Assembly: GCA_947172415.1 (NCBI GenBank)
Contig: OX359201.1
Location: forward strand, 6,064,501-6,128,500
Reading direction: 5' to 3'
DNA: 64,000 nucleotides
Source: Chondrosia reniformis
Lineage: Eukaryota > Porifera > Demospongiae > Chondrillida > Chondrillidae
Shown here piece by piece: positions 6,134 through 63,201 of this stretch. Numbering within the stretch: position 1 is the stretch's first letter; each line of letters opens with the position of its first letter. The translations under genes were made by a program, and so were the position numbers. The notes beneath the pieces were generated by a model. That model saw only the letters and a list, made by a program, of their open reading frames with translations, did not search any database and had not been told where the DNA came from.

Positions 6134-6759
6134 ATGGTGAGTTGTAGCTGGGGCAGCATTATGAATCATAGCGTGCGATGCATCGACTATTTCTATGCAG
6201 GCTAGCATCTCAGATAAAATAGTTGGATCACTTCTTATGCTTTTGGCTTCAATAATCTTCGTCTATTATACAATCTGGGTGATAATACTGGTGAGGCAGA
6301 TCAGATGTAACCTAATTTGTACCTGTGATAGTCAGTATGGGTGTCCTTTGTTTGACGTAGCCCTTCATTGAACCAGACAATGTTCTTCATCAGCTGTTTT
6401 TACCAAGATACTATGCCGTAGCACTGCCAATAATTGCTGGAGCGCTTCTCTTACTTGCAATTGGTGAGCAGAATGCAATGCATAAACGTAATACATTGTT
6501 TATACGTACGTATGTATAGTTAGTATGAGAGGGGAAACATGAAGGAAGCATTACTTTGGTAATTATAGCTCAGTGGCAGAGCTCTGATCATAACCAGCTG
6601 TCCTGGGTTCAATTCCCAGCTATTACTTCATTTACTTGTGGTTTATCACTTTATATTTCTTTTCAAACAATAGGTATATTTGTAGTGATGGTTACAATTC
6701 AGGAGAACAGAAGAAAAAAGGCAAAACAGAAACTTGCTAATGCTAAAAAGATACAATAG
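6134..6759 (+). CDS. DPM2: Dolichol-phosphate mannose synthase regulatory subunit 2
   Basis: Four exons keep frame: 6134-6136 (the ATG alone), 6201-6290, 6361-6463 and 6674-6759, giving 93 residues. Two hydrophobic helices are present: [16 protein letters not shown] with WVIIL, then [16 protein letters not shown] with FVVMV. The loop [17 protein letters not shown] matches the DPM2 family. The tail is Lys-rich. DPM2 is an ER membrane protein that stabilises the DPM1/DPM3 synthase, which makes the mannose donor for N-glycans, GPI anchors and O-mannosylation. The first exon contributes only the initiator codon, with donor ATG|GTGAGT. Intron 3 holds a tRNA-like sequence. The length matches the family (about 84 in human). 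Confidence 0.93.
6556..6630 (+). repeat. tRNA-like sequence in DPM2 intron 3
   Basis: An A-box-like TAGCTCAGTGGCAGAGC is followed by a good B box, GGGTTCAATTCCC, at normal spacing. The acceptor stem has two mismatches. The anticodon arm, CTG..CAG around CAT, has a faulty loop length. I read it as a tRNA-derived remnant, such as a tRNA pseudogene or a SINE head, not a working tRNA gene. Confidence 0.6.
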
Positions 6760-7006: not shown

Positions 7007-10000
7007 TTACCACAATTTAGAAGCATCCTCCAATCGAGTAAGGTCCATTGTTAAGTCCCACTCCAAGTTCTTAGACTTCTTTTTCATGTTTTCTGCCAGT
7101 TTAAGTGCCTTGTTTAGTTTGCTCTCTTCCTTTTGGTTCCAGCTGCTTCTCCTACGTATGTACACAATTACACAACAAAGACATCAAGTTAAAAGATCAA
7201 AAACCTAGAATATTTGATTTAAATATTTGTGCATTAGCTGGAACACAGATTTTTACCTTTTGTGAGGGTTAAATTGAGTGCTCTTGCGCTCCACATGCAG
7301 TTGACCAGGGGTAATGTATGCTGCCTTAGCAAACACATTTATTCTGCTGCTGCCAGCCCCTTCAAAATGGCTGTATTCACTAACATGGCTGCTGGACACA
7401 CTTGCTTGACGGGCATGTTCCTTAGGATAATGAGAGTAAAGAGGGGGCGGCGGTTGGGGGTGTTCCTTATGGTAGTGGGCAGAATGGTGTCCATATGGGG
7501 TGAGTTCACGGCTGGGGTGGGCGTGTCTGCTACTTGGGAGTATATGTCCAGGTGGGTAATGACTGTACATGTCAGCATGGTGCATGGGGGCAGGGTTTAC
7601 AGGGTGGGAGTGGTGCCTATGATGGTGGTGCTTCTTAGAAGATCTTTTGCGCTGCCATCTTGTGTATTCATCAGGTAATTCTGAAGGAACCTTCTGACGC
7701 CCTTTGCTCTGAACAGAATCCTCACATGACGAATAGGAGCAGCAACTAGAGTATGTTTCATCGTCCAGATCTCTTTGATGCAACCTCTGGTAACAATGAT
7801 CAGTGTATCTAGGGGGGTGTGATGTCTCTGTAAACTGGTCAGTCTGATGGTTCTTGATTTTAGGAGTTGATGTATATTTCGGACTCGGGTGTGGGATTGT
7901 GACATCAGTCTGCTCAGGAGAAAGGGGTGGGTCCACTTCTTTTTGTCTTCTTGAGAAGTGAGAGTCATCACTAGCTTTACTTTCTGCAAATTTGACAAAG
8001 TGGGCATGGCCTGGTATTGAGTGTGGTTGCTCAAAAGGTATAGTTTGACTAGCTGTAGAAACACACCCTCTTTTAGAAGTAGTGGGAGTGGCAAAATGCA
8101 TCTGTGAACCAGTTGCAAATTCAGTGGCTGAAGTGGTGGGCTTTTGGTAATAAGGTTCTGATACCCATTTTTCAGTTTGGGAATGGGTAGTTGAAGTACA
8201 AGTCCCAGCTGGAAATGTGTCAGGCGTCCTTGGATGCTGAGTTGATTTTATCCCTGTGGAAGCTGACTTCCATTGTTTACCATTTAATTTGGACTCACTC
8301 TCACTCTTTACCAGTGGCTGAACACAAGCCTCTCTGTCATCCAGTATTAGAGAAGGAATGGCATCAATACCAATATTGATACCTCCTGGTAGCTTTCGAG
8401 TAACAGTTTTAACTTTCCATTGAAAGTTAGGGTCAGCTTGTTCACTATGCACACTGACCAATGGCACAAATTGGCTGATATCAAATTGACTGCAGCTCCC
8501 ATCTGATAGATGGCTGTGCCTGGGATGATCTGATTGGTGGCTCTGCTTGGGATGATCTGACTGGTGGCTGTGTTTAGGAAGATCTGATTGGTGGTTGTGT
8601 TTAGGAAGATCTGATTGGTGGCTCTGTTTGGGATGATCTGATTGGTGGCTCTGCTTGGGATGATCTGATTGGTGGCTCTGCTTGGGATGATCTGATTGGT
8701 GGCTCTGCTTGGGATGATCTGATTGGTGGCTGTGTTTAGGGCGATCTGATTGGTGGCTCTGCTTGGAATGATCTGATTGATGGCTGTGTTTAGGAAGATC
8801 TGATTGGTGGCTGTGTTTAGGAAGATCTGATTGGTGGCTGTGTTTGGGGTGATCTGATTGGTGTAGTGAAGCTTGGGACACTTCTTGAGATTCCTGTGGA
8901 TACACATGTTGTCTGAATTGAGACACAGGTGAGGTCAAAGGCTCTGGCTTCAAAATGTCATCTGGAACTCTACCAGAAGGAGGATGGATCTTTTGTCTTC
9001 TGCTTGCCCGTGAAGACTTTGGAGAACAATTGCTGAGCGTATCTTCATTGTGTGTTCCCCGAGATGACTCCATTGGAACATGAAGGCGGCCAACCACAAT
9101 CGGACTTCCACTGCAATCACCATTTAGGGATGAGTTGCAGGATTCTGTTAGCGTAGGCTGGTGCAGAGTACGGGACTCTTTGGCCATCCTCAGATGATTC
9201 AGCTCTTCCTGTAGCCGTGACATCTGCTCCTTCACGGCCTTCAATTCAGCACTGTAAGCAGGAGATATCATCATGTGTACATACATACATATGCTAACAA
9301 TGATACTGTTACATGTATAATATGTTATTATTATGTTAGCATGCTATATAATACCTATATAAAAAGAACAACATACACACATACGTATGTACCCATGTAT
9401 CTACGTACACATGTAAATACACATGTAGGTAATTAGGAAATAGAAATTCCAAGTGCAACTTTTACATAGCTTGGTTATGCCCAACCAATATATACATACG
9501 TATATATAATTTCTATAAGAACAGACACAGCCTCTATTTTCGGATTGGTAAATACATGGACTGTCAACAATAAAGGGAGTTTCCAGGGTTTCCCCCTATC
9601 ATTGTTGAGAGGGTCTTTTACAAACACTAACTCACCTTTCTGTATCAGCACATTCTGTTCTCAGCTCCCTTGAGGTGGGAGGTGACGGAAGGAGGTCAGC
9701 TGGAGAGCTATCTTCCTCCAAGGATTGGGACACTATAGGGCGACTGATACCTGAATTACCAGACCCAAATCTTGTGTGTGGTAGCCCTTCTTCTGATCCA
9801 GCAAAACCACTGTCCCGCTCCTGTACAGTTGAAAGGAAGGCTGACGGAGAATGGGCAGTTTTTGATTGGTTGACGTGAAGCTTAGAGGTGCGTATGGGAA
9901 TGCGTGATGGCCTCGGTTGAAACTCCTCATCATAAGATGGCAGGGAGAGAGAAGTGAGGACTTCACGGTTAACCAATGAATGAGGCTTATGCAAAGTTGC

Positions 10001-12760
10001 TCTCGGTAAAGGCAATCTTGTCTCCCTGGTTTGGTAAGATGGCGTAGCTGAACTGCATAATGAGAGATGGTGAAGAAACTAGCATAAGATGAAGGTAAAG
10101 AGAAATGTACTTAATAAAGTAATGTATGTATGTAATTAGAATAGAACAAGTGCATTTCTCTAATGTATGACACAGACCTGTGCATGACACTCACTTGGTC
10201 TCTCTTCCTGATTCAGTTCTTTTGAGTTCCTTTGAACTTCTGCCACTGGAAGACCTTGGCCACTTCTTACCTTGCACACTGGCAGACGTCACTGAGTTTT
10301 CCAACACCCCCTCATTAAGGCTAGGAGTAAGTGATAGACCTGATAGATCACTAGGGACATCCCCTCTGTTCTGCCTTGGGCCTGATAGATCACTAGGGAC
10401 ATCCCCTCTGTTCTGCCTTGGGCCTGATAGATCACTAGGGACATCCCCTCTGTTCTGCCTTGGGCCTGATAGATCACTAGGGACATCCCCTCTGTTCTGC
10501 CTTGGGCCTGATAGATCACTAGGGACATCCCCTCTGTTCTGCCTTGGGCCTGATAGATCACTAGGGACATCCCCTCTGTTCTGCCTTGGGCCTGATAGAT
10601 CACTAGGGACATCCCCTCTGTTCTGCCTTGGGCCTGATAGATCACTAGGGACATCCCCCCTGTTCTGCCTTGGGCCTGATGGACCAACATTTCTTCGGTA
10701 CTCAAGGTTAGTTTCATCCATTGAATGTGAGCCAGGAGATGAGACAGAGGAGAAACTGCTAATATTTGAGTCAAAATCACATTGGTAGTTGTCGTGAATG
10801 TGATTACTCTGTGGACTGCTCAATGGTCTCCAATTATGGTCATCACTTCTGAGGTGTAACGGCCCTGAGCCATGAACTCCATCTTTAGTAACCTACATAG
10901 GAAACACAGAGGGGATAAGTAAATATGGCCATGTACGTACGTATGTATGTACAGCATTATGCCGCACCATAGTCTTGTCCCCAACTTCCGCAAGACTAGC
11001 TACACCAGTGATGTACAATACATACAAATTTCTGCCCTTTGCTAGGAAGTTTAATCAAGGAGCATATGCAATGACACTTCATCTAAACACACACACACAA
11101 ACATAATATGTCTTCTGACACCTTCTATACACCATGTGATCAGATACACCTAGAAATTCTGATTTACCTGGTCGCCATTTTGTGTGTGTTGCAATGAGTC
11201 ATTCACCATTTCTTTAATTGCCAACATTTTCTGGGTCAGGTCACCAATCTACAAAAGACATTTTCTCAACTCTCAAAATCTATAACAGCTAAACGTCAGC
11301 TACAATTCTAATGAGTTCAATGCTCAAAAGTTATGCAAGAAAAGTGAACTACACTAAACAGTAGATGTGGTTTAGATAAATAATTACTTTAACTAATAAA
11401 ATTAATAAATTAGTCCTCTGCTATAGAACTTGTAATTGAGTAAACGAAGTATAAAGTATAAAGTTACATGATCAAGCAGACTTACGTATGCTACATCAAT
11501 TCTTGTGCATACGAATGTGTACATACAGCGAAATACACTTTCTTCACAAGTACGTAATATACATACAAATGGAAATATTATGAATCTACTGACACTTACT
11601 TGAGATTCTAATTCTTTATCTAACCCTTCACTTCCACTTCTATTTCCATTCTGCAAATTCAGTTTCTGTGTTACAGCACTTTGTTGAGCCTCCAGTGAGG
11701 CCAATGCTGACAGCAGATTGTCACAATTCTGGTCACTGCTCCTACTGGAAGACAAGTGTTCTGGGCTGGATGAGTATGTAATCTTCTTTTTCTGTCTTTT
11801 TCTCTTTTGACTAGCAGAACTTGAGACTCTAGAAAGCTGAAGGCTGCTATCTGAAGTGTCTCCCTCATGATGTGTGTACGAATTGGAAGGTGGTACCAGC
11901 CATTGTTGTCTTCCTCCACGACTGCCTTGCGGAAGAGTAGGACTCTCTGCCTCCTTCAACTGCTCAGTGTCTCCATGGCAATAGTCATGTCTCACACCAG
12001 GAGGGTAAGAATCAGTTATCCCTTCTTTGGATACTGAAGACTGGACTGGCATTGTTAATGGTAATCTTTCCTCTAAAGGAGCATTGCCTTCATTTTGCCC
12101 AACAGCAACGGGTATTAGCACATCGCTAGAGAGGTGACTTGACACAAAAGGGTCTGACAAGCCAGACCCTGAGGGAGAAAGTGCTCTCACTGGTGAACTA
12201 GAGGAGGCTACAGGCTCAGGAGTGTGTAACTGGGCAAATGGATGGGATGGGTCGACCGCTTGAACGACTGGTTTTTCGACTTCGTAAATCACTTTCAACT
12301 TTTTGTTTACAACATGATCATTAGAAGAGGAAAGCCGAAGTCGGTCGATGTGCAGTTCACATTGAGCTAGACGCTGTAAAACTCTCTCGTATTCTGATTG
12401 TAAATTTTTGTTAACTTCATTTGACTTCGCACCTTTTTCTTTCTCGTTCTTTAACTTGTCTCGAAGCCTCTTTAACAAGCCGTCTTTCTCAGCTAAAACT
12501 TGGTAGATATCTTCAGGAAGGGGGGAATCCTCGACATCTCCATCATTATATTCCTTAGCAACGTAATTCGACGCGACTGATTCTTCTTCTACGTCGTACC
12601 CATCTTCTACTGAAGCGTCGGAGAGATTGCAATCGGTGAGCGTGTTACTGAGAAATTCTTCGAGATCATCGCATTCTTCTTCGTTTAGTGAAGTGGCAGC
12701 ACTTTCGTCCTCCTCGTAGTCGAACTGCAGGCTCTCTGCACTACAGGCGTCCAACTCCAT
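7007..12760 (-). CDS. AKNA: AKNA homologue (centrosomal coiled-coil protein)
   Basis: Six exons keep frame: 12760-11600, 11248-11168, 10892-10195, 10052-9636, 9251-7257 and 7151-7007, giving about 1498 residues (human AKNA about 1440). Landmarks in AKNA order: an acidic N-terminus; LQSEYERVLQRLAQCE with DRLRLS, equivalent to the AKNA helix that includes IDQLRL; ERDSGFAGSE, equivalent to the ETDSGFVGSE motif; LKAVKEQMSRLQEEL, a late coiled coil; and the tail NKALKLAENMKKKS, equivalent to the last AKNA helix. Between these lie low-complexity Ser/Pro/His stretches with two minisatellites. AKNA organises microtubules at the mother-centriole subdistal appendages; the older name as an AT-hook transcription factor is disputed. 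I start at MELDACSAES because an AAAATGGCC-type leader precedes it; an in-frame ATG at 12928 is less likely. The TMEM115 stop is 165 bp upstream on the same strand. Confidence 0.8.
8508..8870. repeat. 27-bp coding repeat in AKNA (nine-residue unit)
   Basis: About 13 tandem units encode SDHPKHSHQ-like nonapeptides, with variants SDLPKHSHQ and SDHPKQSHQ. They lie in the long fifth AKNA exon. Units differ by a few bases, so the array is older or more diverged than the 42-bp array. Confidence 0.9.
10339..10674. repeat. 42-bp coding repeat in AKNA, eight exact-length units
   Basis: Eight units of 42 bp run without spacing. In the AKNA frame (minus) each encodes GPRQNRGDVPSDLS. Units are nearly identical; one has cccc in place of ccct. 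This indicates recent expansion and likely length polymorphism. Confidence 0.95.
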
Positions 12761-15900: not shown

Positions 15901-16666
15901 GCTGGATTAACATTCCTAATTCTCACCAGAAATTCCTTGCTGCCCCAAAGAGGTTCCATGACGACAGCTGAACCACTTATGATAACAATGCTAACTGGAA
16001 CCTATGAAGAAACAAACCACAGCATTAAGATATTAATATAGAGATTTATTGCTAAGTATCATGTTGGCATTATCGGGCAGATTCAATTAATAACAAGAGG
16101 TTTCAATCAGTATTATCTTCACCAGTTGTTAATGCTTCTTGTAAAGTAGGAGGTCAAACAAAATAGGTGTAATTGAGTGACATGACAGTGATTGATAGCC
16201 TATAAATTATTATTGACAAGACATGACAAGACGCAACACAACAGGTCAGGACAGGACAGGACATGACAAGACGCAACACAACAGGCCAGGTCAGGACATG
16301 ACATGATAATAAACAGTTTATTGGTTCACAGACTCACTAAAAGTATGTTGCTTTCATAGAAGGGAGCAGTAATGATTGTCCAAACTTTCATTCTAGCTGG
16401 AATTATACTACCAGGAAGAAATAGCTTAGATATTTTCAAATGTATAACAGTCTCATTACTACAGACTTACTATCCCGGTAACACTAGTACATTCTCTTCC
16501 ACAAGAGGTATTTTGCCCAATAAGTACAGCACTACTACTAACAAGCAGAGAGCCTTTGTTCCCGGCGATATCAAAGAGTTAAATTGAAGAAACTAAGCAA
16601 AACGAAATAATCAAAAATATAAAGACAGGAATGTCACTGTAATGGACATACCTTCTGGCTATACAT
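12925..16666 (-). CDS. TMEM115: TMEM115 (Golgi rhomboid-fold protein)
   Basis: Nine exons keep frame: 16666-16652, 16592-16471, 16407-16338, 16001-15927, 15510-15428, 14554-14446, 14203-14004, 13699-13589 and 13132-12925. They encode about 330 residues (human 351). Family signatures: KALCLLVVVLYLLGK (helix 1), VLPGY, VVMEPLWGS, HGFWPLLGGNLVALKQ, WVYLRFYQR with FATFFP-like SLATFFPQVMQ, and KALKELNERLNKIE near the end. TMEM115 is a Golgi multi-pass protein with a rhomboid-like fold lacking protease residues; it is tied to COG-dependent retrograde transport. The first exon encodes only MYSQK. The donor after exon 6 is GTTAGC, not the usual GTA/GTG. The gene is divergent from the Rieske oxygenase, with 123 bp between start codons. 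Confidence 0.93.
13133..13588. other. TMEM115 last intron
   Basis: 456 bp, AT-rich. The acceptor used is ...aaactaag|GC, chosen because it joins AGAAGAAA to G CAA AAG in frame with the family sequence. A second in-frame acceptor about 30 bases upstream (tttcag|AATG) would add residues not seen in relatives. No further gene is seen. Confidence 0.6.
16220..16310. repeat. Short tandem repeat in TMEM115 intron 3
   Basis: Repeats of gacatgacaagacgcaacacaacaggycagg, about 45 bp apart, two units, with shorter ggacagg iterations between them. Confidence 0.7.
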
Positions 16667-16789
16667 AGCTTTTCAGAAGACGGCCATTTTTTATCAAATT
16701 TTCGATCAATATTATTCATAGACAGTTTCCGCCTCAGGACACTCCTTTTTTGCATAAACTATCTGCTTGCCATCTGGAAGAGGTCGGTC
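16667..16789. promoter_or_regulatory. Bidirectional promoter TMEM115 / Rieske oxygenase
   Basis: Only 123 bp separate the two initiator codons. No TATA box is obvious. The sequence includes ggccattttttatc next to the TMEM115 start. A shared divergent promoter is inferred from position alone. Confidence 0.5.
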
Positions 16790-18652
16790 ATGAAAGTAAT
16801 CGCCCTCTCCTTTGTGTTCGCTTTGATTGTAGTCTCATACTCACAAGAGACTATACTTAGCAGCGTTCCGTCACTGTTTAATGGAATTCTCGATTCTCTC
16901 CAAGTTTCACCTTTAAGCGGTGTCTTGACTCCACTGCTGGAGTTTTTTGGCCCGATTTTTTCTTTCTTCTACCAAGGATTTTTATCCATTCTGTTTATCA
17001 TATTGGCCTTCCTGTGGCTGGGATATAAACTCCTTAAACTGCTGTTTGCGCCTTTGAATCTAGTACGACAACTCGGAGATGTCGGATATGCCGAGATGTC
17101 GGAACAGACGCAGAAGCAGACTGCAAATATAGTAAGGAAAATACGTAAAATTGGAGAGATGCCGCCGGTGTACCCAAACGGATGGTTTAGCTTATGCCAT
17201 GGCTCTGAAGTTCCAAAAGGAACGGTAACGTACGTACACGGCTTGGGGGAGCATTTTGCCGTATTCAGGGGAGAGGATGGACGCGTGAGCGTGCTGGATG
17301 CGTACTGCCCTCACATGGGAGCTAATCTAGCCATCGGGGGACGCGTTCTTGGCAACTGCCTCGAATGTCCCTTTCACGGATGGCAATTCAGAGGAGAAGA
17401 CGGAAAATGCACAAAAATTCCTTACGCTGAGAAAGTTCCAGAACAGGCGAAAATTAAATCTTGGAATTGTATTGAATGCAACGACCAAATCCTAGTGTGG
17501 TATCACGCAGAAGAGATGGAACCTTCTTGGATTCCAGATGAAATTGAGGAGATAGCTTCAGGAGAATGGTCATGCAAGGGGAAGACTACTCATTACATTA
17601 ACTGTCACATTGAGGTATCTAAATGTGCTATTATTTCTAGGGCTATTGTTATAATTACTAGTTTAATTGCTGAATTCCATGGTAACTTACCAGGAAATAC
17701 CTGAAAATGGTGCTGACATTGCCCATCTGGGCCAACTCCATGTGCCCTTCATTGGAGGAGGAACAGATTTGAGATACATTTTCAAGAAGTTGTGGCTAAT
17801 GTTTCCCCACAAATGGACAGCGCAGTGGGAGCAGAGAGAACCACCCAACGAACACGTGGGCAGGCTGCTACTCACTCATCAGTTGTGCTTCTACACTTGG
17901 CCTGTCCCCTTGACCAAGCTGGATGTGACAGTTGATCAAGTAAGATGAAAATTGCAAGCATTTTTGGCAATTTATCTCTCAATTTTCTTCCTTCAATTTT
18001 AATAGGTAGGACCAGGAATAGTCATTTTGAGATTTGAATCTTTTCTAGGCAAAGGAGCCTTTGTGCAATCTCTTACTCCTGAAGGACCCATGTTACAGAA
18101 GCTGATCCACAAGATGTGGGTCAGCAAATGGTATCCCACCTTTGTGGCAAAGCTTTTCCTCACTGCAGAGGCTCTGCAGGTATGTGTCTGCAGGCGTTGA
18201 AGGTTATTAAAAGAATTTTCAATTTTCATAATTACCATGACTTCATTAGGTTTCTTTGGAATGTGTATGCAGTATTTATTTTGGAGTACCTATATATAGA
18301 CTTATATATCAGGTGTACAATTCTGTAAGTATGTAAATATGATACCTATTTTGACTGCACTCTGAAAGGAACTCTGTTGGTATGTGTTAATTAGTGCTCT
18401 GGGGTAATCCATATACTACAAACATACAGGAGTGACTTAATTAAACTTAAGCTCTTTAGGTGTAAGCCAAACTGATTAATTGTTTAGGTTGATCGAGATT
18501 TGATGATTTGGAACAACAAGACATACAAATCAAAGCCTCTTCTTGTGAAGGAAGATCATCTAATTGCCAAGCACAGAAGATGGTATAGTCAGTTTTACTC
18601 TGAGAACAGCCCCAAGCTTGAAGACTTGAAAGGCAAAGATTGTGAATGGTAG
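16790..18652 (+). CDS. Rieske sterol 7-desaturase, neverland/DAF-36 family
   Basis: Four exons keep frame: 16790-17614, 17694-17939, 18006-18179 and 18488-18652, giving 469 residues. The N-terminus has a hydrophobic leader (1-18) and a membrane helix near 60-88 ([19 protein letters not shown]). The Rieske [2Fe-2S] site is C173-P-H175 and C193-x-x-H196 ([14 protein letters not shown]). The mononuclear iron site D-x2-H-x4-H is at [11 protein letters not shown], just after the first intron. This architecture is that of neverland/DAF-36, which convert cholesterol to 7-dehydrocholesterol at the ER using NADPH-derived electrons. The family exists outside ecdysozoans. The in vivo substrate in a sponge-like animal is unknown; a 7-unsaturated sterol pathway is plausible. 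All metal ligands are intact. Confidence 0.88.
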
Positions 18653-21675: not shown

Positions 21676-21784
21676 GTCAGGATGGCCGAGCGGTCTAAGG
21701 CGCCAGACTCAAGAGCGTATCTTGCATTCGGTGGAGTGTTCTGGTCCACGTATGTGGGCGTGGGTTCGAATCCCACTCCTGACA
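21676..21784 (+). tRNA. tRNA-Leu (CAA) with intron
   Basis: The acceptor stem GTCAGGA pairs perfectly with TCCTGAC, with discriminator A. The D arm TGGCCGAGCGGTCTAAGGC and the T arm GGGTTCGAATCCC are canonical, and there is a long type II variable arm. The anticodon stem CCAGA/TCTGG holds loop CTCAAG followed by an intron of about 25 nt after position 37, as is usual for animal tRNA-Leu(CAA). A run of T directly after the gene serves as the Pol III terminator. Confidence 0.96.
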
Positions 21785-46856: not shown

Positions 46857-48093
46857 ATGTCAGAAAAGTTGTTGTCACAGCTCGAAGATACAGCCGATGG
46901 AATTATCCGCCACTCGAAGAGCTTTCTTCCCCACCTAGCTCGCCTCTGCCTAATATCCACCTTCCTAGAGGATGCCATTCGGATGTGGTTCCAATGGCAA
47001 GACCAAGCAGATTACGTTAACATTACTTGGCACAGTGGAAGCGTTTTGGCAAACCTTTTTGTGCTCTGGAATTTTGCGGGACAATTGGCCGGTTGCGTAA
47101 TGATTCTTATTCGTAAGAAAGTCCCCATTGCGGTGGGAATATTGAGTGCTGTAATAGTCATACAAGTAAGCAGTGAAGGAGACTTGAGTAGACTTACTAT
47201 AGTATATGAATATATATATAAATATAGTGTAGTTAATATTTTACAATCCAAAGGTAAAATATATTCACCACTTTACTATTCTGATGATCTTTAAGATTTG
47301 GTACATTGCCAGTGAACAATGAAGACTGTATTACTATTAATAAGTTGATTAATGTCTATATCTATACTCTCAAAGGTTTCATTTCCTTTCTTGTATACCA
47401 GATAATAGTATATTCTGTTCTCTGGGATGTAAAATTCTTTTTAAGGTGAGTAATCATGCATATACCTATGGTAGCTATTTCTATAGCTTTTTAATGGAAT
47501 GAGTTTAGTTGTTTATGGCAACAGCTATTTTATCAAAGGGAATATTTAATTAACCTGTACCACAATAAACAGGAAAATGGCTGATATTTGTACACCCAAA
47601 GCCAACACAGATATGTAATTTTAAGTTGTTAATGTTTTGCAGGAACTTTGCTCTTGGTGGGGCTCTCTTGCTCCTCTTAGCTGAAGTGTCGGGAGAGGCA
47701 AAGACCATGTTTGCAGGTATTCCCAGTACTGGAATCAACCAGAAACAGAACTACATGCAGTTGGCTGGAAGAGTTCTTGTGATATTCATGTTTCTGACTC
47801 TCTTCAACTTTACACTCAGTTTCTTTCAAGTCATTACTCTTGTTGTCTCATCCGTCTTCATGTCCGGAGTGGCCATCGGATATCGTACAAAGTTGTGTGC
47901 CTTCATTCTAGTTATTTGGCTCTCTATTACAAATGTCATCACCAACCCATGGTGGGCACACGGCCACAATCGGATAATGAGGGATTTCCTGAAGTACGAC
48001 TTTTTCCAGACAATGTCAGTCATTGGAGGTCTTATGTTTGTGGTAATACTGGGACCAGGAGGAGTGAGCTGGGACGAACGCAAAAGGGAATGA
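46857..48093 (+). CDS. SURF4: SURF4 cargo receptor
   Basis: Three exons keep frame: 46857-47165, 47402-47445 and 47643-48093, giving 267 residues (human 269). Family segments: LARLCLISTFLEDAIRMWFQW, a diagnostic block; VLWDVKFFLRNFALGGALLL; MQLAGRVLVIFMF; and the terminal DFLKYDFFQTMSVIGGL with GPGGVSWDE. Seven or eight hydrophobic helices. SURF4 (yeast Erv29) cycles between ER and Golgi and loads secreted proteins into COPII vesicles. The C-terminus is ERKRE, less lysine-rich than the KKKEW-type end of vertebrates, so the retrieval signal may be weaker or different. An in-frame ATG at 46770 would add residues not seen in relatives. Confidence 0.95.
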
Positions 48094-53074: not shown

Positions 53075-56000
53075 ATGGGAAAATCAGTTCTCTTTGCTGC
53101 AGTGCTTGCAGTTGCTATTGTGTGCAGTTTTTCAGCAACTTTATCAAAAAGATCTGAAGTTTTTTTAGAACCTGGAATACTTGGAGAGGCATCATATGGA
53201 GATAGTACAACTGTTCCACCTCCCACCTACCAGACAGAAACAGACAAACCAAAACCACCAGTTGTTATTCCTGCTCCCTCCCCAATCATTTTGATTCCTG
53301 AAGTAAGAAATAATATAGTAGATGGCATGAATAATCTAACACACCAATTTACTTACATGCTACGTCTACTTTAGAGTAAAGGCTTATAGGGAACTAAACC
53401 TAGTGTGACCTTGGGATGAGGATACAAGAGTTTTCTCCTTCTCCTTCTCTTTTTATCCTTTGGACAAGCACTATCTATTCTACTGATACAAATATATAAA
53501 GTCATATTCTATTGTACTAGTCCACTTGCACCACATATGTATAGTAATATTAACACAACAGATTGTATAAATATGAGTCTATAATAGTCTAAATATGAGA
53601 GATATAAATATAAATATGAGTCTTGAGGTGTATTTGTGTATCATGTTATGTTAATTTGTTGTGTACTTGACCTTTTAGGGTGCCACTATTGTTGAGCTAA
53701 AGGAAGGTCAGGAACTGATTCTACTAACTCTTGGAAATTGGAGCTATGAGCAAGGAGTTCTCCCTGATGGTGCTATAGAGAAGGACGGTGTTCTAATAAT
53801 TGCCCACCCCCTTCCTTCTCATACTGGCCTGTACATTGTTGAGCAGGAAACTGGAGTCATGATGATCTACTATATTTGTAAGTAAGCATCTGTTATCACA
53901 CTTAAAACTCTGCAGACACAACTGTTTGAACTGCAGTACTATGACTTTGTGGGCAGCACATTGGTTGATTGTGTCTCAAACCCCTCAATTATAATATTCA
54001 TACACTCCTGGTTACCTGTTCATATATTCAGTGGTTAGTTACTAATGCGTGGGTGTTAGTTTTGATAATTAAACTAACAGTACATTGTTTTTATGTAAAT
54101 AAATATGTATAAACAAGTTTTATTAATGACTTGCTTTTATTTAGATGTTTTGCCAATGGGATGTACTGAGTTGAAAATCAATGCCGATGATATTAATGGC
54201 ATTGTGTTTGAAAATGAATTTATCATCAATAAAGAAATTAAAGACATTTCAATTACTAATGTTGTTTTCAGAGATGTATTTCTCAATCGTGTCTGCTTCA
54301 ACAATGTAACCTTAGAGAATGTTACCTTCATCTATTCTGAGTCGAAGGTACTGCCATTCACTAATCTCATTCATGGCTCCAACCTCAGGAACGTTAGCTT
54401 TATCAATGCAAGCCTCATTCGCTCTAACTTTACTTCTTCTGAAATGTACAATGTCACCTTTGATAGGGTGAACATGTTTGAGGGGAACTTCACAGAAATG
54501 GTCACTGTTAATAACACTCTGGTGAACTCCACCGTCACTGACAACGTGTATTACAACTATACTCAGATCAACGGAACCTGGGTTGACAGTGTAGTTATCA
54601 ATGCTTCCTTTGGCAACAGCTCCTACGAGACCACGAGAAGAGAGGTACCCTGTGATGAGGTACATGATACAGTTAGAGACGGTCATTGTTACATCACCAT
54701 CCCTCTTCGTGAACCCAATTGGGCTGTTCTTTATAATGTTTCCATGGTGAATGTGACCTTTCTTAATGTCACTCTAGGAAATGCCACGCTTAGAAATGCA
54801 ACCATCAATAATTCTACTTTCATGAACATTTCCATAACCGAGAATGACTGGGTTAATGTCACCTTTGTGAACTCAACTTTTGGTAATGTCACTGAACGCC
54901 CTCTCAGAAGAGAAGTTAGCTGCTTAGGAGAATTTGATGTCTATGAGAGGAACCTTAGTCGCTGCTTTGTAGTCCTTCCAGTTGTTCCAGACTATGTTCT
55001 CCTAAATGATTCTACTCTTGTCAATGTCTCCTTTGTAAACACCACATTGAAGAACTTTACTCTATCCAGCTCCCAGTTACTGAACTCCACATGGATAAAC
55101 TCCACCTTCATAAATGCCACATTTTATAATGCAACCTTTGGAAATGAGACAAGGGAGTACTTCATCCAAACTGGATGCCATCGTGAACATGACATCAAGA
55201 TGAATGTCACAATCACCCACCAATATGGACAGAGAGTTAGAGAGAGATGCTTCAATGTCTTCTACACATCCTCTGACTTTTCCTTCTTCATTAATACAAC
55301 TTTCCTCAACTCCACCTGGGAGAACATTACCATGAGAAATGTGTCCCTTGTAAACACAACTTTGGTGAATGGATCAATAGTTAACACAGTCTTCCTGAAC
55401 AACACCTGGATCAATACCACCTTTGTTAATTACACGCTTGGCAACGAAACCTCAAACTTCACTGTTCCAGTTCCCTGTGAAGAGCCTCACGACATTCCTG
55501 GAAGGGTGTGCTATAATTGGACCACCACACCACCTACTTGGGTGTCCATTTTCAACTCTTCCTTCATCAATGTCACATTCTGGAATACAACTCTTAGAAA
55601 TATTTCACTTTTCAATGTCAACATCTCAAATTCAAGTTTTGTTAATACGACTATTGCCTACAATAACTGGGTCAATGTCACCTTTGTAAACTCAACCTTT
55701 GGTAATGTCACTGAACGCACTCTCAGAAGAGAAGTTAATTGCTCTGGAGAATTTGATTTCTATGACTGTAACCTTAATCGCTGCTTTGTATTCCTTGCAG
55801 TTGCTGTTCCAGACTACGTTCTCCTAAATGATTCTACTCTTGTCAATGTCTCATTTGTAAACACCACATTAAAGAACTTTACTCTATCCAACTCCAGGTT
55901 ACTGAACTCCACATGGATAAACTCTACCTTCATTAATGCCACATTTTATAACACAACCTTTGGAAACGAGACAAGGGAGTACTTCATCCAAACTGGATGC

Positions 56001-58841
56001 CATCAGGAATATGACATCAAAGTGAATGTAACTGTCATTGACAAGAATGGAACTGAAATTGAAGAAGAGGGATGCTTCGATGTCTTCTACACATCCAATG
56101 ACTTCTCCTTCTTCATTAATACAACTTTCCTCAACTCCACCTGGGAGAACATTACCATGCGAAATGTGTCTCTTGTAAACACAACTTTGGTGAATGGATC
56201 AATAGTTAACACAGTCTTCCTTAACAACACTTGGATCAATACCACCTTTGTTAATTACACGCTTGGCAACGAAACCTCAAACTTCACTGTTCCGGTTCCC
56301 TGTGAAGAGCCTCACGACATCCCTGGAAGGGTGTGCTATAATTGGACCACCACACCACCTACTTGGGTGTCCATTTTCAACTCTTCCTTCATCAACGTCA
56401 CATTCTGGAATGTAACTCTTAGAAATATTTCACTAATCAATGCCAACATCTCAAATTCAAGTTTTGTTAATACGACCATGATCTACAATAGCTGGGTCAA
56501 TGTCACCTTAAGCAATGTGACATTTGGAAATGTCTCCTATCCGGACAAAATGGTCGTACCCTGCACTGAGGCCTTTGATGTAGCATTGCAGACGGGGGTT
56601 GACTGCTTTACTTGTTACAACTACACTCAACCGCAGGTTAACGGATTCCTAAACTCTTCCCTCCTCAATGTTACATTTGTAAATGTGACCCTCTTCAATT
56701 CCTCCTTTGTGAACACAACCATCTACAACTCTACATTCATGAATGTCACTGCCCTTAATAATACATGGGTGAATGTGACCCTCGTTAATGTAACCTCAGG
56801 AAATTTGACAGAGAACCCATTTGTGTATAATTTCTTCAATGCTACTCTAAGAAATGTCACAGTACTAAATGTTACCTGGTGGAACAGTACTTTTGCGAAT
56901 GCCTCCATCTACAATTCTTCCTTTATCAATTCCACCTTTGCCAATTCTTCCTTCCTCAATGTCACCAACTTGAACAACACCTGGGTTAATACAACAGTTG
57001 TCAACAGTACTCTCAGTTTTGTCATCTTCAATAATGACACACTGAATAACGTTTCCTTTGTGAATGTTACTGGTAACAATGTCCAGTTTATCAACATTAC
57101 AATGATGAACTCCTCGTTCTACAATATGTCGCTTGTATCTGAAAGAGTGCTCAATGTTACATCAAACTTTACAGTGAGCATTCCCACATTTTTGAATTCT
57201 ACCATTTACAATACTACCTTCGTGAATGTCACTCTCGTGAATGCCACTTTTGTGAATGTTACAGTGTTCAATGGAACATTCATAAACACGACAATGATCA
57301 ACAACACATGGGTAAACACGACAATGAACAACAGTTCCTTTGGTAACTGGAGCATTTGGACCACATTTGCAAATCTTATCAACACGTCACTGGTAAATGT
57401 GACTTTCAACAATGTGACATTCAACAATGCCTCCTTTGTGAACACATCCTCCAACAATGTCACCTTCATCAACACCACCTGGGCCAATTCAACAGTCATC
57501 AATGGAACCGCTTTCAACCTCACCTTCATTGCCTCAAACATGACAAATGTCACCTTTGTGAATCTGGAAATGGTCGGAAATAAGACATGGTTCAATATTC
57601 CCATGTACATCTTCCAAAATTGTTCCCTTGTTAATGGTACCTTCCTCAATGTTACCATAAGAAATATGTCTTTGGCAAACTCCACTTTTGTTAATTCATC
57701 CATTGTTAATATGACAGCTCAGAATACACTGTGGAACAATGTCTCCTTTGTCAACACTACTCTGGGTAATGGAACAAATATCCCTCTTGCAATTCCAAAT
57801 AGCATCTCTATCATCCCTGGTGTGATTTTCTACAATACAACACTGAACTCCACTTTCTTCAGTAATGCCACCATCAATGCGACCATGTTTCTGAACACAA
57901 CCATATACAACACTACCTTTCTCAACACTACAATATTCAATACAACCTTTAGAAACATCTCAATTATCCAAAACCCTGATGGCATCACCATAAATATCAC
58001 CAACGATGAAAATATAACAGAAGTTTACATTCCCCCTCCAATTCTGTTTGTGAATGTCAGCCTGTTTAATGTCTCCTTGACAAATGTGACTTTCGCAAAT
58101 GTTTCCATCGTCAACACAACCTGGGGCAATCTCACAATTCTCAATGTCACATTTGACAATTCTACCATAGTCAACACCACTTGGACTAATTCCACCATCT
58201 TTAACCTTAATGCTACAAGAAGCAATTTCACCAATGTCTTTATTAACAACACTGACATTCACTCCAGTAATTTCAGCTCTCCAATTCTAGTTAATGTCAC
58301 ACTAAACTATACCAATTTAATTGAGGTAAATATGACTAACGCGTTTTGGAGTAATTCAGTATGGAATTACACTTTCGTGAAGAAGAGCAATTTCACTCAA
58401 GTTCAATTCAGGAACCTTACCTTCCAGAATACAAATTACCTGCGTTGTTCTGTGTTTTCGAATGTTTATTGGGAAATCTGCAATATTGAGGAGATTGACT
58501 TTACCGGAATGATCATTTCAGAAAATTACTTCCTCCAATCAAATATCTCCAGAATGAACCTGACGTATTCATCAATGGTGGATCCATTCCTAAATGAAAC
58601 CTTCATTAACACGACCAATTTGGTTGAATCCACTGTTAACAAACTTGAAAACATTACTCCCGGTTCCATGGACTATGTGGTTGCCAACCATTCCGTTATC
58701 ATTGCGGATCCTAAGGTTTATGAGGGGATTGAATTTGAATATTATATTTCAGTCATTGGACCCATTGATCAAAATCTAGAGAGAATTATCCGTATCTATG
58801 AAGAGACTGGATTCACTCGCTTTGGACTTTGCTACCGTTAA
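53075..58841 (+). CDS. Giant secreted sequon-saturated pentapeptide-repeat protein (SV2-luminal-like beta-helix)
   Basis: Three coding exons keep frame: 53075-53302, 53679-53877 and a 4.7-kb exon 54145-58841, about 1707 residues. Exon 1 gives a signal peptide (MGKSVLFAAVLAVAIVCSFS) and a Pro/Thr linker. Exon 2 resembles an Ig-like strand set (VELKEGQELILL ... SHTGLYIVEQ) without cysteines. Exon 3 is a run of pentads [FLWIV]-x-N-x-[ST], for example FVNTT LKNFT, so an N-glycosylation sequon occurs on nearly every pentad; I counted about 190. The pentads are interrupted every 60-100 residues by loops with a Cys pair, such as VPCEEPHD...GRVCYNW. Periodicity and Phe/Leu spacing match pentapeptide-repeat quadrilateral helices and the luminal domain of SV2. 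The Asn and Thr should project outward. No membrane helix or GPI signal is clear at the C-terminus (FTRFGLCYR). No close family is recognised; an adhesive or matrix glycoprotein is a guess. Confidence 0.85.
53330..53456 (+). repeat. SINE-like repeat family R1, 5' part only
   Basis: gaataatctaacacaccaatt, gctacgtctactttagagt, gcttatagggaactaaacct and tgggatgaggatacaagag match the first half of the family; the second half is absent. It starts about 27 bp after the exon 1 donor of the giant gene. Confidence 0.8.
54990..56510 (+). repeat. Internal duplication, period about 825 bp
   Basis: The block from VLLNDSTLVNVS through the PTWVSIFNSSFINVT module occurs twice. One anchor, ccttcttcattaatacaac, starts at 55282 and again at 56107 (825 bp apart). 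Long stretches are identical at base level, so the duplication is recent or homogenised. Confidence 0.9.
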
Positions 58842-62149: not shown

Positions 62150-62538
62150 GTAAACATTTTTTGGGGCACGAAGTACTTCCACCTCCTCGTGGTGTGCCCT
62201 GGGATCACCTTCTAAAGTGATGCGAAGCGAAGTACTGCAGCAACAATCCAATAACACTTGCAAAAGGAGAAGAAACAGCATGGTCTAATCACAGAGCAAC
62301 TAACTATACATTGTTTGAACCTTATTTAAATTTTAAATCATGTATTTTTCAAAATTGTCACTTGAAATAAATCTTTGTGCATTTAATGATTGTTTAGCTA
62401 TACAATCCCAATTCATAATGTATTACCCAGCTAATTTATAATTTAATGCATCCATCTAAGTATTTAGTATACTCTTGTAAATTTGTAAATTACTGTACCT
62501 ATAAGATATAGGGGACTGCCCCAGGCAAGACAAATAAA
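62150..62538. other. Spacer before ALG14
   Basis: 389 bp. The hairpin-prone segment ggggcacgaagtacttcc...gtggtgtgccc lies near 62160-62200; the rest is AT-rich and should contain the ALG14 promoter. Confidence 0.5.
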
Positions 62539-63201
62539 ATGGACGACCATATCATGCTGTTAATGTTAATGGTTACAATATCATTGTTTCTACTTATTTT
62601 AAGTCGTTTATATTATTTAATGTTTCTGAAGAAGAATACAACAATAAAGGAAAGGGTTACACCCGCGAAGACATTCATTGTGCTCGGATCGGGAGGTCAC
62701 ACTGCAGAAATGATTAAACTGCTTTCTGGGATGACGTTAAAGAACTTTTCTCCAAGAATCTACATTGCAGCGAATACAGATAAAATGAGTGAAGAAAAGA
62801 TTAAAGCGTTTGAGTCATCCTATAATCCAGACTCGGGGAAGGAATCTTTTGAGGTTCGAAGGATCAGCCGAGCTCGTAATGTTAGGCAGTCCTGGTTGTC
62901 TACGCCATTGACAACGGCTTGGTCAATAATAAAGACAATGCTGCTAGTTCTAAGGAACCAGCCTGACTTGATTCTGTGTAACGGGCCGGGTACTTGTATA
63001 CCTGTCTGTATCTGGGGGTTTCTTTTGAAACTACTGTACGTTAAGGAGACGAGAATAGTGTATGTCGAAAGCATTTGTCGAGTGAAACACCTCTCTCTCT
63101 CCGGCCGCCTGCTGTACTACTTTGCGGACGTGTTGGTAGTGCAGTGGCCACGTTTGAAAGAGAAGTACCCCAGAACAACATATTTAGGAAAAATTATGTA
63201 A
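62539..63201 (+). CDS. ALG14: ALG14, UDP-GlcNAc transferase membrane subunit
   Basis: An intron-less ORF of 220 residues (human 216). One N-terminal membrane helix (LMLMVTISLFLLILSRLYY) is followed by the family core: FIVLGSGGHTAEMIKLL, a GSGGHT nucleotide-fold loop; RRISRARNVRQSW; NQPDLILCNGPGTCIPVC; RIVYVESICRVKHLSLSG; and the C-terminal VVQWPRLKEKYP. ALG14 recruits ALG13 to the ER face and together they add the second GlcNAc of the dolichol-linked N-glycan precursor. It is 3.7 kb from the sequon-repeat gene, probably by chance. All motif residues look intact. Confidence 0.95.
   Translation: MDDHIMLLMLMVTISLFLLILSRLYYLMFLKKNTTIKERVTPAKTFIVLGSGGHTAEMIKLLSGMTLKNFSPRIYIAANTDKMSEEKIKAFESSYNPDSGKESFEVRRISRARNVRQSWLSTPLTTAWSIIKTMLLVLRNQPDLILCNGPGTCIPVCIWGFLLKLLYVKETRIVYVESICRVKHLSLSGRLLYYFADVLVVQWPRLKEKYPRTTYLGKIM

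Follow-up and report, generated by a model that had tools for sequence, protein, structure and literature searches.

Our analysis of a 64,000-nucleotide stretch of the Chondrosia reniformis genome (contig OX359201.1, hereafter the window) revealed a three-exon gene whose product we regard, with moderate confidence, as a secreted rod-shaped glycan scaffold, namely a beta-helix with N-glycosylation sequons at nearly every corner that would serve as a strut or present glycans multivalently in the mesohyl or glycocalyx of the sponge. The 1707-amino-acid protein contains 196 N-x-[ST] sequons (144 NxT and 52 NxS), close to the 190 or so of the initial annotation, compared to 54.0 ± 5.9 in 2000 shuffled versions of it (maximum 74; a further 1000 shuffles agreed with the first set). 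According to the proposed mechanism, a signal peptide would direct the protein to the secretory pathway, and the bulk of the chain is predicted to form a right-handed four-sided pentapeptide beta-helix of about 48 coils. Each pentad would turn a large hydrophobic residue inward, place Asn in the corner turn and open the next strand with Ser or Thr, resulting in a sequon at nearly every corner. If many of these were occupied, N-glycans would line all four edges in columns with a spacing of one coil (~0.48 nm), giving a rigid bottlebrush of N-glycans. The role as strut or glycan display is the weakest step, and is suggested because polyvalent glycans serve sponge cell adhesion.

Gene model, pentad array and predicted fold

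An open frame of 1580 codons (54099-58841) was found in the window and extended to a three-exon model with GT/AG splice sites and a single terminal stop:

53075..53302, plus strand: exon 1, signal-peptide-like N-terminus (MGKSVLFAAVLAVAIVCSFSA) and Pro-rich linker, followed by a phase 0 intron
53679..53877, plus strand: exon 2, about 66 amino acids with immunoglobulin (Ig)-like motif spacing (DGxLxI..GxY), followed by a phase 1 intron
54145..58841, plus strand: exon 3, about 1564 amino acids with the predicted pentapeptide beta-helix, 195 sequons, a non-repetitive tail and the stop

Twenty-four donor/acceptor combinations kept the frame open, out of which we picked GTAAG-type donors and pyrimidine-rich acceptors. 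This choice is supported because two paralogous genes, described below, are readable with the same phases 0 and 1. Intron 1 is of phase 0 in all three genes when read by eye, and phase 1 is possible for intron 2 in all three, a reading that yields the motif [YF]-V-x-P at the second junction (YVLP, FVRP and YVKP); other splice combinations are open in the paralogues as well. The previously claimed signal peptide has its counterpart in the signal-peptide-like start of exon 1, a call made by visual judgement, and we infer that the product of exons 1-3 is spliced and secreted. An Ig domain in exon 2 was considered but is not supported, since there is motif spacing only, no Pfam match, and a probability of 2.5% in a profile comparison with the Ig regions of the homologues.

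Exon 3 consists of 16.6% Asn and 13.7% Thr. Spacing between sequons is exactly five residues in 119 of 195 cases, the pattern [FLWIVMY]-x-N-x-[ST] matches 159 times, and another sequon follows five residues on for 121 sequons and 20 residues on, at the next coil of the same edge, for 99. A script that favours a hydrophobic residue at position i assigned 190 pentads in 21 runs of at least four and up to 14 pentads. Of these, 183 have F, L, I, W or M at position i, 146 have Asn at i+2 and 132 have Thr/Ser at i-1. Junctions between pentads are sequons in 119/169 cases, and in 112/128 within the core (residues 286-1496). Contrary to the initial description of nearly unbroken sequon pentads, the array is interrupted, with pentad blocks and Cys loops alternating in its N-terminal half.

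Pfam searches gave matches far above cut-off to Pentapeptide_4 (189.5 bits, cut-off 38, 8.9e-57, 15 stretches of exon 3) and to LD_SV2 (PF23894; 138 bits, curated cut-off 29, 1.4e-40, 13 stretches of exon 3), and no other family above cut-off was found for the window protein. AlphaFold2 modelled pentad strands with good confidence within the repeat blocks, the strand being formed by [ST]-[FLIW]-x and Asn being placed in the turn. Solved pentapeptide-repeat proteins were on top of the structural matches to this model; phage tailspike beta-helices scored nearly equal, and a three-sided tailspike helix tied with the best pentapeptide-repeat protein in one structural comparison. The right-handed quadrilateral beta-helix that characterizes pentapeptide-repeat proteins, already proposed from the sequence, is therefore supported as a prediction, and the rod, initially suggested to be tens of nanometres long, has an estimated length of ~23 nm. 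Cys loops had been noted at intervals, and we located eight between residues 312 and 966 from the cysteines in the translated model, with coordinates computed from the frame; pLDDT is the predicted local distance difference test score of the model:

54651..54689, plus strand: Cys-pair loop 1 (residues 312-324), outside the modelled region
54921..54965, plus strand: Cys-pair loop 2 (residues 402-416), outside the modelled region
55176..55250, plus strand: Cys-pair loop 3 (residues 487-511), pLDDT <50
55476..55511, plus strand: Cys-pair loop 4 (residues 587-598), pLDDT <50
55740..55784, plus strand: loop 5 with three Cys (residues 675-689), pLDDT <50
55998..56075, plus strand: Cys-pair loop 6 (residues 761-786), pLDDT <50
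56301..56336, plus strand: Cys-pair loop 7 (residues 862-873), pLDDT <50
56562..56615, plus strand: loop 8 with three Cys (residues 949-966), pLDDT <50

These loops would bulge out of the rod and may staple it or bind partners.

Compared to pentapeptide-repeat proteins such as HetL, MfpA, QnrB1 and AlbG, the window protein is much longer, probably secreted, and bears Cys loops. It fits their consensus, given in a review as [STAV][DN][LF][STR][G], at i-2 and i but has S/T instead of D/N at i-1 and N instead of G at i+2, with the consensus being one of the majority from which members vary. S/T at i-1 together with N at i+2 forms the sequon. The luminal domain of SV2A, SV2B and SV2C is an N-glycosylated quadrilateral beta-helix of the pentapeptide type that lies in the secretory lumen (N441, N491 and N516 are reported for SV2B; PMC11814414), and the same kind of fold is predicted for the window protein, to which SV2A and SV2C align in F-x-N-x-T register (best E 1.3e-4 and 5.3e-4). 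However, SV2 has a single luminal domain described as having 4.5-5 coils (PMC8145042) that sits inside a 12-transmembrane major facilitator transporter, whereas the window protein has an estimated ~48 coils and 196 sequons, and showed no transporter family in exon 3 in the Pfam search at E<=1. For lack of the transporter we do not class it as an SV2 protein but place it among the pentapeptide-repeat proteins, as a variant with kinship to the SV2 luminal domain, a link that bears on the origin of that synaptic domain. The TibA/AIDA-I autotransporters are bacterial, heptosylated via a dedicated enzyme and without N-glycan sequons, and their likeness is an analogy only.

SV2-like segments were also observed elsewhere in this genome, even though the animal lacks a nervous system. 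Two of them (L003 1189-2109 and L005 1315-2292) lie ~15 kb apart on chromosome C1 and encode a stretch that resembles the luminal domain and bears sequons. A match to SV2A covers 103 residues of L003 (3.4e-6), and both loci are below the LD_SV2 cut-off (28.8 and 23.8 bits).

Paralogues and homologues

Paralogues were traced by LD_SV2 and Pentapeptide_4 searches of the Chondrosia genome (117,379,552 bases, 15 contigs) followed by protein searches with the matches. The LD_SV2 genome search missed the window gene itself, and its counts are lower bounds. Two paralogues were found on the same chromosome:

C13:6207117-6208913, minus strand: L036, large exon of 598 amino acids, ~84 kb downstream of the window gene
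C13:5392266-5393870, plus strand: L037, large exon of 534 amino acids, ~724 kb upstream of the window gene

The large exon of L036 is rich in His, Met, Cys and Trp (His 15.6%, Met 11.5%) with one sequon and might encode a metal-binding rod, while L037 contains 16.7% Tyr and 14.4% Phe, two sequons, and Ig-like Cys and Trp spacing in exon 2. Both have a signal-peptide-like start in an upstream exon and a small second exon. Identity to the window protein is 18-24% over the compared region, and pairwise BLASTP among the three gave 8e-28, 4e-11 and 5e-10, the last pair being colinear at the N-terminus. L036 passes the Pentapeptide_4 cut-off of 38 (58.6 bits) and L037 is just under it (34.9 bits); both are just under the LD_SV2 cut-off of 29 (26.2 and 28.2 bits, respectively). 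Third codon bases are broadly alike in the three genes (A 0.17 in each, T 0.32-0.35), with G higher in the Met/Trp-rich copy, as would be given by ATG and TGG codons. The contrast in composition therefore lies in the protein, and mutational bias is not favoured as its cause.

With two paralogues bearing other surfaces, a single-copy curiosity is ruled out and one odd protein becomes a family, which suggests an animal protein family with a single beta-helix scaffold that has been given different surfaces. It is conceivable, though somewhat doubtful in its entirety, that a secreted scaffold was duplicated on this chromosome and that the copies acquired distinct, nearly uniform surface chemistries, namely Asn-Thr sequons carrying N-glycans, His-Met-Cys binding metals, and Tyr-Phe making aromatic or cross-linking surfaces. 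The sequon copy would then be an N-glycan bottlebrush denser than any we know of, and its chitobiose stems could pack in a chitin-like manner, the interchain spacing of chitin being close to the ~0.48 nm beta-strand spacing.

A 1256-base DNA query against the same genome matched only the window gene and its internal duplication, and there may be further Asn/Thr paralogues. Among 63 Pentapeptide_4 matches listed, 30 have loci, several of which are the window gene or SV2-like loci. The others that were read were mostly rejected as minisatellite frames with 5-residue units (L006, L011, L016, L026 and L027 among them), L014, L030 and L033 contained no useful frame, and in L032 there is a short pentapeptide stretch that looks genuine.

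A protein-database search for homologues yielded just two, both uncharacterised homoscleromorph proteins, P0001 from Oscarella lobularis and P0002 from Corticium candelabrum. About 8000 candidates were scored in each protein-database search, and two further searches of this size added no homologue. Both proteins are enriched in sequons (63 and 70, respectively, vs 23 and 35 expected), with 5.9 and 3.6 sequons per 100 amino acids compared to 11.5 in the window protein. The Corticium protein is above the Pentapeptide_4 and LD_SV2 cut-offs and the Oscarella protein falls short of that of Pentapeptide_4. Unlike the window protein, they have upstream Kazal domains that pass the cut-off and upstream matches of Ig type that narrowly miss it.

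A viral or phage origin was rejected, as tblastn against phages gave no match and neither of the two stretches that fitted a pattern in a scan of viral contigs codes for a relative. At the level of titles and abstracts, with most subscription journals outside the coverage, we found no description of such a protein; the sole paper pairing pentapeptide repeat with Porifera has the term in its symbiont annotation method.

Evidence for selection on the sequons and rival explanations

When S/T positions were re-dealt 20,000 times, Asn and S/T were paired at 96.8 ± 2.4 of the 169 junctions (maximum 106) instead of the observed 119, and re-dealing within the core gave 105.1 ± 0.96 of 128 (maximum 110) instead of 112. 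Pairing was likewise elevated with a different anchoring of the test (counts 123, 17, 5 and 64; odds ratio 93) and after removal of the second copy of a tandem internal duplication (95/139 vs 74.0 ± 2.3). T and S occur at 144:52 in sequons vs 80:90 elsewhere (p 3.6e-7). The duplication itself was delimited by self-BLASTN and codon comparison:

54843..55684, plus strand: first copy (~280 amino acids)
55662..56509, plus strand: second copy

The copies are 91.3% identical over 848 columns. Between them, the codons for Asn and S/T of helix sequons (28 each) show 8 synonymous and 0 nonsynonymous changes, compared to 16 and 35 elsewhere (p 3e-4), and where either copy has a sequon, nonsynonymous changes (five in all) are confined to the Cys-loop regions. 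Junction pairing, preference for T, duplicate-copy codons and the enrichment in the homologues all speak for selection on the sequons.

The main rival is that the sequons follow from fold and composition, Asn suiting the turn and Thr/Ser the strand start, with most sites empty or their glycans incidental. We consider this rather unlikely, but several observations weigh in its favour. Given Asn at 146 and Thr/Ser at 132 of the 190 relevant positions, ~97 of the 119 junction sequons are expected from composition, the paralogues reach other extreme compositions, and pairing is weaker in the Oscarella and Corticium homologues (p 0.19 and 0.027; 0.001 and 0.008 with other anchoring). Among the signs of selection, the preference for T is a weaker one since strands favour T too. 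Helix i+1 codons also differ between the copies by 5 synonymous and 0 nonsynonymous changes, so that the entire helix appears conserved and not the sequons alone, and gene conversion between the copies is possible. Against a by-product stand the pairing above position-specific expectation, the excess of T over S, the few sequons in both paralogues and the recurrence of sequon enrichment in two homoscleromorph proteins. The pairing test and the paralogues in particular argue against it, although occupancy may still be low.

For the glycan scaffold that we favour, a dense N-glycan coating is supported by the sequence statistics and by the SV2B glycans on the same kind of fold. With four Asn per 0.48-nm coil, simple arithmetic gives an area of ~1.9 nm2 per glycan at 2.5 nm from the axis, and a single sugar chain needs ~0.45 nm2, as known from chitin. 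The stems would therefore fit, but there would be little room for large branched glycans. All sites could be occupied, though this is not assured, and crowding may reduce the occupancy. Should the sequons be occupied, this would be a natural rigid scaffold with N-glycans at molecular-lattice density and a test of how tightly sites can be packed while still being glycosylated and allowing the protein to fold. Sponges, long studied for their adhesion via polyvalent glycans, would then have a candidate class of matrix proteins that present glycans.

The family might instead consist of material proteins that co-assemble in a collagen-rich matrix, each paralogue being coated with a single predominant chemistry (Asn/Thr, His/Met or Tyr/Phe). 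Asn/Thr would in this case serve hydrogen bonding or hydration and not carry glycans. This would fit with the presence on a single chromosome of three paralogues whose exon phases match and whose compositions contrast, with third codon bases that are similar except for the higher G of the Met/Trp-rich copy. It is nevertheless improbable in our view, as the paralogues are just 18-24% identical to the window protein over the compared region, their beta-helix fold is presumptive, and the Tyr/Phe paralogue is just under both Pfam cut-offs.

Cores of aggregation factors and glyconectins are recognized by Calx-beta, VWD or Wreath domains; the Pfam search of the window protein matched neither Calx-beta nor VWD, and no separate search for a Wreath model was made. 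A core of a glyconectin-type adhesion glycoconjugate with polyvalent glycan-to-glycan binding would have very high valency here, and elongated protein cores that carry polyvalent glycans are documented in sponge adhesion (PMC7828597), yet it is very unlikely, since only pentapeptide and LD_SV2 families are above cut-off, described glyconectins bear acidic glycans that are very large and number ~20, and the main text of that source does not contain the word Chondrosia.

Neighbouring features in the window

An ALG14 homologue, a subunit of an N-glycan precursor enzyme, is encoded at 62512-63201 (Pfam 1.7e-66), ~4 kb downstream of the sequon gene, which is probably a coincidence. A homologue of the cargo receptor SURF4 is located at 47569-48093 (Pfam 7e-59). 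Two Rfam matches to transfer RNAs were found at 21676-21784, long enough for an intron, and at 6559-6627; ARAGORN in its bacterial setting gave neither. Tandem-repeat frames of coding length, some open on both strands, occur at 1522-2478, 7253-9343 and 10171-10892 with units such as those of the HQSDHPKHS type and the GPRQNRGDVPSDLS type. Finally, a Rieske-domain protein with a hydrophobic stretch at its N-terminus is encoded at 16643-17704 (Pfam 3.7e-22), which we take to resemble cholesterol desaturases of the DAF-36/Neverland kind.

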